Positions 14,218 to 56,345 of a DNA stretch of 64,000 nucleotides are shown here, one piece after another. Where the stretch lies: positions 18,231,763 through 18,295,762 of the forward strand of contig NC_049996.1 in assembly GCF_000003815.2 (NCBI RefSeq). Reading direction: 5' to 3'. A model generated the notes under the pieces. The model did no database searches and was not told the origin of the DNA. It worked only from the letters and a program-made list of their open reading frames with translations. The position numbers and the translations under genes were made by a program. The first letter of the stretch is position 1; every line of letters starts with the position of its first letter. The stretch is from Branchiostoma floridae. Taxonomy: Eukaryota > Chordata > Leptocardii > Amphioxiformes > Branchiostomatidae.

Positions 14218-17200
14218 ATGGCTACAGCACAGCCACCGACAGCAGAGAACCTCACAGCCCCGGCTGCAGCTAGCCAGACGGCGGCGGGACCGGGCACAGG
14301 GGCGGCCGGGGGACAGACAGTCGGCGGGACGGAGAGCCCCGCCCCGGGGGCCGCAGGTGGAGGAGCCGCCGCCCCGGTCAGCTTCGTGTGCCAGAGATGC
14401 GGGCAGCCCCTCAGGTAGGTTCTCAATGTGTCAATTCTACAATGTAGATACATTCTAGTGAGTATTAGTCTTCAGTATCATCCTATGGAAAATTACATTG
14501 CAGACAACAGTGTTTTCATTTGGCTGACAACCTTATGATATGAGAACAAATTTATGATATTCCTTTACACTCAAATTATATTTAGCAAATGGGCCTATAC
14601 ATGATAAGGTTTACGTTTATGTCATTTGTAAGCCGTAATTCTAGCTTGATGAAGACTTCCATGACTTCCTAGAAATCCATCTATAAATTATAATGTAACG
14701 TTATATTGTTATCATCATCATCGGTCAACGGGGTTATAGTGTAGAAATTGGCAGGGGCGAGTAAGAACAGAAAGAAACAACACCCCGACTCCCGGGATTC
14801 GAACCCGCGCCGAACCCGGGCAGCCGGATCACAAATCGAACGTGCAAACCGTTCGGCCAAAAGGCTTAAGCCGTTAGGCGTCTTCGGTTTAGCAGTCCTT
14901 GAACACCACTGTTACACTACTCCCCCTTTTCTTTTCAAGATTCGTCCTCGAATCTCCGAGATCGACATCCCTGTGTGGCACATACTAGCCTGTTACTCAC
15001 AGGGCCGGCGTGGGAACCATTGTAGAAATTGGCAGGGGCGAGTAAGAACAGAAAGAAACAACACCCCGACTCCCGGGATTCGAACCCGCGCCGAACCCGG
15101 GCAGCCGGATCACAAATCGAACGTGCAAACCGTTCGGCCAAAAGGCTTAAGCCGTTAGGCGTCTTCGGTTTAGCAGTCCTTGAACACCACTGTTACAATA
15201 GTACATCTGAAGTTATGGCACCCCATGTAAGGAGGAGTAGAGGACACAGATGTTGTTGTCTCTTTTCTTACATAATCGCCAGACTAGATGCATCACTCAC
15301 AGCTCTTGACCAGGGCACGCTCGACGATCTGACAGCACTGCTGGTATCCAAAGGGGAGGGAGGGTGATTTGAGAGCTAAGATGTTGTTGTCTTGTCTCTA
15401 CATCATCTGTTTTTAAATCTCCAGACTAGACGCCTCTCTCACAGCGTTGGACCAGGGAATGATTGACGAGCTGACAGCACCGCTTGTGGCCAGAGAAAAG
15501 AGGGGGGGGGGGGCTGCCAGGAAAGAGGAGGGGAGAGCTAACATTTCGTTACAACTCTCACATCATCTGTTTTTAAATCTCCAGACTAGACGCCTCTCTC
15601 ACAGCGCTGGACCAGGGCACTCTTGATGAGCTGACAGCACCCCTGGTGGCTGGAGAGGAGGGGGAGGGGGGCAGGAAGGAGGAGGGAAGGGTTCAGATGT
15701 TGTTGTCTTACCTCTTACAAAATCTCCAATCTAATCAATAATCTCCTTTTTAAACCTCCAGACTAGACGCCTCTCTCACGGCGTTGGACCAGGGCACCCT
15801 TGACGAGCTGACAGCACCGCTGGTGTCCGGGAAAAAGAGAGGGAGGGGGGGCAGGAAAGAAGACGGGAGAGCTAAGATTTTGTTGTCTCTTTTTTAAATC
15901 TCCAGACTAGACGCCTCTCTCACGGCGCTGGACCAGGGAACCCTTGATGAGCTGACCGCGCCCCTGGTGGCAGGAGAGGAGGGGGAGGGGGGCAGGAAAG
16001 AGGAGGGAAGGGCTCAGATGTTGTTGTCTTGCCTCTTACAAAATCTCCAATCTAATCAATAATCTCCTTTTTAAATCTCCAGACTAGACGCCTCTCTCAC
16101 GGCGCTGGACCAGGGCACTCTTGATGAGCTGACCGCGCCCCTGGTGGCAGGAGAGGAGGGGGAGGGGGGCAGGAAAGAGGAGGGAAGGGCTCAGATGTTG
16201 TTGTCTTGCCTCTTACAAAATCTCCAATCTAATCAATAATCTCCTTTTTAAATCTCCAGACTAGACGCCTCTCTCACAGCTCTGGACCAGGGCACCCTTG
16301 ACGAGCTGACAGCACCCCTGGTGGCCGGAGAGGAGGGGGAGGGGGGCAGGAAGGAGGAGAGGGGGAGACAGGATGTCAGGTTTGAGGAGACTCGGGAGGA
16401 CGGGGTCATCAGGAAACTCATACCTGCTGCAAGGTAACTGCACTATAACCTGATCAGAAGTTAATTGTTCTACAACCCAAAGAAAATATGACATAGCAGA
16501 GTTTTTGAACGTATCTAGGGCTCGAAATTCATCTTTCTGATTAGGTGCACTGATGCACCATGTAAAAAAAGTAATAAAAAAAAAGTGTACACAGTTTTGG
16601 AGTGTTGACAATATGGATGAACCCAAATTCCAATTTAAAATTCTTATGTACTATCATGACATTTTATTATCTTTCTAACACTTAGATGTCAATTGACAGT
16701 AGTATACACTGAATCATAATCTTAAGATTATGATCATAATCTTAAGATTATGATCCAGTGTGTACTACTGTCCTTTGGTATCTAACATACGCAAACCTAC
16801 AAAAATATTTGGGTGCACCAAGGTACATATGCACCCACCCAGTATTTGAGCAATGGTATCTCATGGTCTTCCTCAGCTTTCAATTATAACATTTGGTAAA
16901 AAAATCTACAATGCATATGTTTGACTTAGATTGACCTTCTAATGTTTGACCCGGATTGACCTTCTGATATCTGACCCAGGTTGACCTCAGTGGAGAGCGG
17001 CAGTGGGTTCACCCTGATCGATGCTGATGGCAGAGACAACCCCAGTCATAGGTTAAAGGTCACCAGCCACCTGTTTGACATCATGTCGGGACAGACTGAC
17101 GTGGACCACCCCCTGTGTGAGGTGGGCTCTTCCAATGATCTGATGTTGTCATCTCCTGTATACACGTGAAGTTGGTGTTTAACCTTTAGCTTGCTAAGAT

Positions 17201-56345: not shown

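Follow-up and report, generated by a model that had tools for sequence, protein, structure and literature searches.

Genes and repeat arrays at the locus

The window, by which we mean the whole 64-kb stretch of Branchiostoma floridae DNA that was analysed, was picked because a reader noticed its repeats. Six genes were modelled by hand and then checked, giving 100 splice boundaries in total.

585-6055, minus strand: guanylate kinase (GUK), hand-built model with a Pfam Guanylate_kin match
14218-22893: beclin-1, 12 exons, hand-built model
27472-39731: LRR gene encoding a 750-residue protein, 16 exons, hand-built model
42631-47915: P450-1 gene, 7 exons
50519-56345: P450-2 gene, 7 exons
57835-62321: P450-3 gene, 7 exons

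All 50 modelled introns have GT...AG ends. Solved Beclin-1 chains align with the beclin model over 434 residues (E 6e-195), and the four proteins scanned against Pfam match the expected families, namely APG6/BH3 for beclin, LRR for the LRR protein, p450 for P450-3 and Guanylate_kin for GUK. The model ends are less certain at the true stop of the last LRR exon and at the end of the last GUK exon. The window has a sole N gap of 559 bases (62947-63505).

TRF arrays were kept at a score of at least 40 and a best period of at least 12 and then clustered, which yields 38 array clusters in the window. Thirty of these are genic, including three weak, purely exonic 15-bp repeats. Ten of the remaining 27 genic arrays cross a true splice boundary with at least 3 nt on each side (9 at an overlap of at least 6 nt, 8 at 10 nt or more), so that a tandem unit spanning the exon–intron boundary, a feature that marks mirage minisatellites, is found in 10/27. 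The crossed boundaries are seven acceptors and three donors, four in beclin, five in the LRR gene and one in P450-2, with none in GUK, P450-1 and P450-3. Looser copies occur at three further boundaries, the LRR exon 13 acceptor, the beclin exon 5 donor and P450-1 exon 5, bringing the boundaries with some copy to 13. These boundary-crossing arrays are real. Copy-by-copy alignments show that the unit of the large acceptor arrays consists of the intron end plus 60-118 nt of exon, and that the unit at donors consists of the end of the exon plus the start of the intron.

15259..16373, + strand: beclin exon 2 acceptor mirage, 177-bp unit (TRF, copy alignments)
16917..16987, + strand: beclin exon 3 acceptor, 25-bp unit x2.8 (TRF, ungapped copy score 52)
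18804..18832, + strand: beclin exon 5 donor, dispersed copy in intron 5, 600 bp downstream
19777..19919, + strand: beclin exon 7 acceptor, 56-bp unit x2.6 (TRF, copy alignments)
21746..21900, + strand: beclin exon 10 donor, 38-bp unit x4.1 (TRF, copy alignments)
29897..30098, + strand: LRR exon 4 acceptor, 111-bp unit x1.8 (TRF, copy alignments)
30592..30848, + strand: minisatellite before LRR exon 5, ending 5 bp before the acceptor; adjoins without crossing
30975..31156, + strand: LRR exon 5 donor, 67-bp unit x2.7; real donor after 31013
31240..31560, + strand: minisatellite before LRR exon 6, ending 3 bp before the acceptor; adjoins without crossing
31667..31717, + strand: LRR exon 6 donor, 26-bp unit x2; real donor after 31686
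31848..32326, + strand: LRR exon 7 acceptor; real acceptor after 32237 (TRF, copy alignments)
32804..33718, + strand: LRR exon 8 acceptor; real acceptor after 33653 (TRF, copy alignments)
37370..37410, + strand: LRR exon 13 acceptor, one diverged copy, 33/39 aligned nt identical
46953..47235, + strand: P450-1 exon 5, first ~113 exonic nt copied upstream without the acceptor (copy alignments)
54586..55014, + strand: P450-2 exon 5 acceptor, 152-bp unit x2.9 (TRF, copy alignments)

In beclin exon 2, six upstream copies carry the intron end and about 100 nt of exon, and the AG is kept in all six. The decoy acceptors lie after 15282, 15424, 15584, 15761, 15905 and 16082, and the real one after 16259. 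Compared with the real boundary, the nearest copy is identical in 60/60 intronic nt and differs at 8 of 100 exonic nt, all at codon position 3. Because of this discrepancy the unit looks like a mosaic rather than a single duplicate that has decayed steadily. The exon 3 array passes its real acceptor (after 16979) by 8 nt, the exon 7 array enters its exon (start 19917) by only 3 nt, and the exon 5 copy comprises 27 exonic nt, 26 of them identical, plus the GT. At exon 10 the real donor after 21778 is followed by decoy donors after 21816, 21854 and 21892; the copy number of this near-identical 38-bp array is not trustworthy from an assembly without long reads. By eye, a tRNA-like element that contains a B-box-like word is also present in beclin intron 1 (14750-15195), where it occurs twice in direct repeat (~283 bp); ARAGORN called no tRNA. 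Pieces resembling it are visible by eye near 54040 and 55850, by P450-2.

In the LRR gene, the exon 4 decoy acceptor lies after 29902 and the real one after 30013, and inspection by eye finds the word GATAAC common to exon and intron at the junction. At exon 7, one copy is recent (decoy after 32098) and another is old and degenerate (31848-31938). Exon 8 has five long decoys plus short 33-bp units, with the AG kept in 10 of 12 decoys; the exonic identity is 58/65 for the nearest long copy and 58/60, 60/65, 62/65 and 61/65 for the other four. The exon 13 copy lies 98 bp upstream of the real acceptor (after 37500). A repeat of the coding end of the last exon, as first reported for this locus, can be made out by eye at positions 39668 and 39803. 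The last exon and 3' UTR (39560-40266) are repeated at 48125-48817, about 8.55-8.6 kb downstream and beyond P450-1, in pieces that are 89-97% identical. From sequence, it is as if the P450 cluster had grown by tandem duplication of a block of LRR 3' end plus P450.

The P450-1 exon 5 copy is identical at 107/113 positions with 8 gap columns (real acceptor after 47122). P450-2 exon 5 has decoy acceptors after 54596 and 54744 and the real one after 54896, with an exonic identity of 105/118 for the nearest copy and 85/91 for the far one.

The original prediction of at least a dozen copied boundaries agrees with our number of 13, but the list differs. The acceptors of beclin exons 2 and 7, LRR exons 4, 7 and 8 and P450-2 exon 5 stand, as do the donors of beclin exon 10 and LRR exon 5. 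The acceptors of LRR exons 5 and 6 have to be removed, their arrays being wholly intronic and ending 5 and 3 bp short, and the acceptors of beclin exon 3 and LRR exon 13 and the donors of LRR exon 6 and beclin exon 5 had been missed. Three P450 genes are present rather than two. The claim that the nearest copy is the most similar applies to LRR exon 7 and loosely to beclin exon 2, and fails for LRR exon 8 and P450-2, that is in 2 of the 4 multi-copy acceptor arrays with a sizeable exonic part.

Decoy splice sites and related systems

Splice signals are kept in most copies, a further mirage feature: the AG in 25/29 decoy acceptors and the GT in 7/7 decoy donors. With a weight matrix trained on the 50 real acceptors and 50 real donors of this window, 19 of 29 acceptors and 6 of 7 donors score above the 10th percentile of the real sites. 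Misuse of a decoy is predicted to cause a premature stop in 27 of 32 cases (20/25 AG-keeping acceptor decoys and 7/7 donor decoys), and this holds for all six beclin exon 2 decoys. An in-frame extension is predicted for the LRR exon 4 decoy and four LRR exon 8 decoys, with +37, +38, +49, +60 and +71 aa. For 12 of the 17 decoys with a long exonic part, no candidate donor lies between the decoy and the next acceptor; in the other five, the exon length would be divisible by 3 only in the farthest copy of beclin exon 2.

Tandem exon duplication with alternative splicing also repeats exonic sequence in introns, as here. In contrast, the copies described here are truncated and mostly lack one splice site, and no complete exon copy with both splice sites, as an alternative tandem exon would require, occurs in the aligned arrays. 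A duplication across an intron–exon boundary is also described, for the potato RdRp gene, as the source of an intron gain (PMC4974935). There the tandem duplication copied branch site, pyrimidine tract and 3' splice site, and the upstream copy gave the donor from which the new intron arose, whereas in our window, as judged from sequence, 12/17 long copies have no candidate donor and so do not amount to an exon with its own donor.

The closest relatives are the mirage minisatellites of lancelets, and the suspected kinship is documented in the passages of PMC3087553 and PMC3902484. Published amphioxus mirages are Adh3, known here only via these two papers, the globins BflGb6 and BflGb9, and PGBD5, with TnC mentioned in passing. 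Their units of 10-160 bp span the exon–intron boundary at acceptors and donors with many decoy AG and GT intact, as we find here (PMC3087553, PMC3902484). Normal RT-PCR products, length instability and concerted evolution are described for them (PMC3087553). The arrays of our window are further examples of this known phenomenon in new genes and are unusually dense, since ten boundaries in three genes are crossed within one 64-kb window. The acceptor-side excess and the silent-site bias measured below are absent from the published passages (PMC3087553, PMC3902484). Among the top matches listed in the open-licence literature, we found no genome-wide survey or codon-position analysis of mirages.

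Position of the arrays relative to chance

A strict copy score replaced an earlier whole-window score, in which weak cores had ridden on strong flanks. A gapped local-alignment test with 30-nt flanks undercounted short-period arrays and was set aside. When the window was block-shuffled, in a single replicate, copy scores stayed below 36 throughout.

Three null models give different answers. For the founder-unit null, single units were placed randomly in the same gene or within 750-3000 bp at several score thresholds; 2.7-4.1 crossings are expected and 8-10 observed, a 2.2-3.2-fold excess (P 0.0002-0.012) that persists when units are shifted just within 750 bp. Placing whole arrays (24 or 30 arrays) gives no excess, with 8.1-8.7 crossings expected against 10 observed (P 0.25-0.35). 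Per position there is no excess either, as 10/100 boundaries compared with 17% of intron positions are covered at a strict score of at least 28. The founder-unit null is the best fit to array origin because a founding duplication is one unit long, while the other two blend in later growth. The acceptor-side excess thus holds under one of three nulls.

The spatial profile shows where this excess is located. Between -1000 and -150 nt, 3-6 of the 50 acceptors have coverage; the number rises to 11 at -50 and falls to 7 at 0 and 4 at +10, so coverage about doubles toward acceptors and peaks ~50 nt upstream, mainly on the intronic side. Donors have no coverage peak, with 3/50 covered at the boundary and 0-6 of 50 elsewhere. 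The proposal of slippage centred on the boundary is therefore too strong. Uniform tandem duplication with selective survival explains much of the boundary pattern. Detection may add to the excess, as selection fixes one member of a boundary array, which may then stay recognisable for longer.

Divergence of the copies and origin of the arrays

In nine arrays, the copied exonic part is 27 nt or longer; pooled, their columns that vary among copies number 26 at codon position 1, 14 at position 2 and 62 at position 3. Neutral copy decay together with silent exon change would place at most two thirds of the differences at position 3. For the nearest copies at the eleven non-P450 boundaries, 36 of 42 differences fall there (P 0.005, or 0.02 if position 3 is granted extra mutability), a post hoc count from one window. 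We prefer this figure over the 33/37 (P 0.0016/0.008) obtained when four boundaries at which only a short stretch of exon is copied (beclin exons 3 and 7, LRR exon 13 and the LRR exon 6 donor) are left out. The two P450 arrays show 8/19, as expected, since P450 paralogues have ~51% third-position differences. With all thirteen boundaries pooled, the count is 44/61 and not significant (P 0.22). The farthest decoys of the first seven arrays give 33/52 (P 0.74), which neutral decay allows, so the signal is confined to the nearest copies.

Synonymous divergence is high in the beclin exon 2 and LRR arrays (pS 0.25-0.50). The LRR exon 4 copy, in an array of two units, has a pS of 0.50 and a pN of 0.016. 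In the beclin exon 2 array and both P450 arrays, copies have changed length in a way that shifts the frame. CpG decay was rejected as the cause of the bias: in beclin exon 2, CpG bases are equal at positions 1 and 3, yet 23/24 CpG-context differences in its six decoys fall at position 3, as do 15/15 in LRR exon 8. For B. floridae, C>T at CpG is given as only ~2x the non-CpG rate in the passages of PMC12862219. Capture of ordinary alleles alone is likewise insufficient, with a synonymous diversity of ~0.04 against a pS of 0.25-0.5 here. The post hoc count suggests a third-position bias in the non-P450 arrays that neither of these causes accounts for.

We consider the arrays to be probably mirage minisatellites, that is tolerated small tandem duplications that were later turned over by exchange. 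Three other readings have to be weighed. It is possible, if somewhat doubtful, that boundaries take part in no special process, with arrays arising anywhere in introns, some running into exons, and the density reflecting a high repeat load. The lower coverage of boundaries than of introns per position (10/100 against 17%), the whole-array placement (P 0.25-0.35) and the missing donor peak agree with this, whereas the founder-unit nulls, which match array origin, argue against it (P 0.0002-0.012) even within 750 bp, and coverage about doubles toward acceptors. That some copies are translated, with decoy acceptors lengthening the exon in frame and the copies being coding sequence under selection, would account for the predicted in-frame reading of one decoy at LRR exon 4 and four at LRR exon 8 and for the low pN of 0.016 beside a pS of 0.50 in LRR exon 4. 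We regard this as quite unlikely: the six beclin exon 2 decoys are all predicted to stop prematurely yet share the bias, 12/17 long decoys come without a candidate donor, and length changes shift the frame in beclin exon 2 and both P450 arrays.

An assembly artefact, in which haplotypes or misplaced reads were stacked in tandem, had been named as something to exclude. Amphioxus genomes are described as very heterozygous (PMC12862219), and the draft genome contained a misassembly of at least one published mirage (PMC3087553). Here, however, the copies are individually different with breakpoints specific to each gene, the sole N-run lies at 62947-63505, and the synonymous divergence of 0.25-0.50 in beclin exon 2 and the LRR gene far exceeds the B. 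floridae allelic value of 0.0397 given in PMC12862219. An artefact is highly improbable, except that the copy number of the 38-bp beclin array is not to be trusted.

For the mirage reading, we propose that a small tandem duplication, founded by slippage or microhomology and possibly primed by short common words such as GATAAC, takes in a splice site and the adjoining exon edge. After duplication of an acceptor the functional exon would be the most downstream unit; after duplication of a donor it would be the most upstream one. Because the outermost true site would still be used and yield normal mRNA, boundary duplications would survive, while duplications within exons would be purged. Through unequal exchange or conversion, arrays would then gain and lose units and swap sequence, and the copies nearest the functional exon would stay coding-like because they meet it again and again. 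The GATAAC junction at LRR exon 4 is as slippage predicts; clear junction microhomology is found in just this one array among those whose junctions were inspected.

The evidence for exchange is mixed. In the beclin exon 2 array, 27/327 biallelic column pairs fail the four-gamete test, which could also stem from recurrent mutation, and LRR exon 8 has 0/21 conflicts. Simulated chromosomes that exchange sequence show a reduced pN/pS, down to ~0.1-0.2 when partners are random and exchange is most frequent. No setting with seven units gave the observed pS of ~0.25-0.27 together with a low pN; a pS of 0.39 came with a pN of 0.25, and a pS of 0.10-0.12 with a pN of 0.01-0.04. The pS of 0.50 with two units in LRR exon 4 was not reached. 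In the simulations, divergence in the intronic part equals or exceeds that at silent sites, which does not match the 60/60 identical intronic nt of beclin exon 2. Since high simulated pS came with high pN, the exchange model appears right only qualitatively.

A more far-reaching idea, which we hold tentatively and consider rather unlikely, is that the arrays are a reservoir of exon variants and not inert decoys. Units would enter and leave the functional position by unequal exchange between chromosomes, silent variants would reach several times the single-copy level, and amino-acid changes would be lost to selection each time a unit takes over as the real exon. Synonymous diversity would then be locally raised at mirage-bearing exons. 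Should the silent-site pattern prove genome-wide, intronic copies would keep exchanging with coding exons, and polymorphism at mirage exons would have to be read differently. The arrays also bear on tolerated splice-site duplication and on possible intron gain, and several near-equal splice sites beside the true one offer a natural test of spliceosome site choice.

Synonymous divergence among the three P450 genes (42631-62321) is patchy, with a pS of 0.27-0.28 in exon 1 against 0.41-0.45 for exons 1-4, a pattern to be expected if the paralogues had undergone gene conversion. Between P450-1 and P450-2, the copied part of exon 5 has a pS of 0.10 and the rest of the exon 0.66 (rank 16 of 462 windows). 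This weakly hints at conversion in the copied part, weakly because exon 1 is also low in all P450 pairs, pairs with P450-3 are just mildly low and the exon-5 tree has no supported fork.

A 56-bp minisatellite of ~16 units occupies 48834-49756. Single degenerate reverse-complement units are seen by eye in LRR intron 4 (~30536-30590) and beclin intron 11 (~22612-22660), where a pattern search allowing up to 3 mismatches missed them. In P450-1 intron 3, a perfect 83-bp inverted repeat at 45912-46321, whose 244-bp middle holds a 42-bp tandem pair, looks like a small non-autonomous element.
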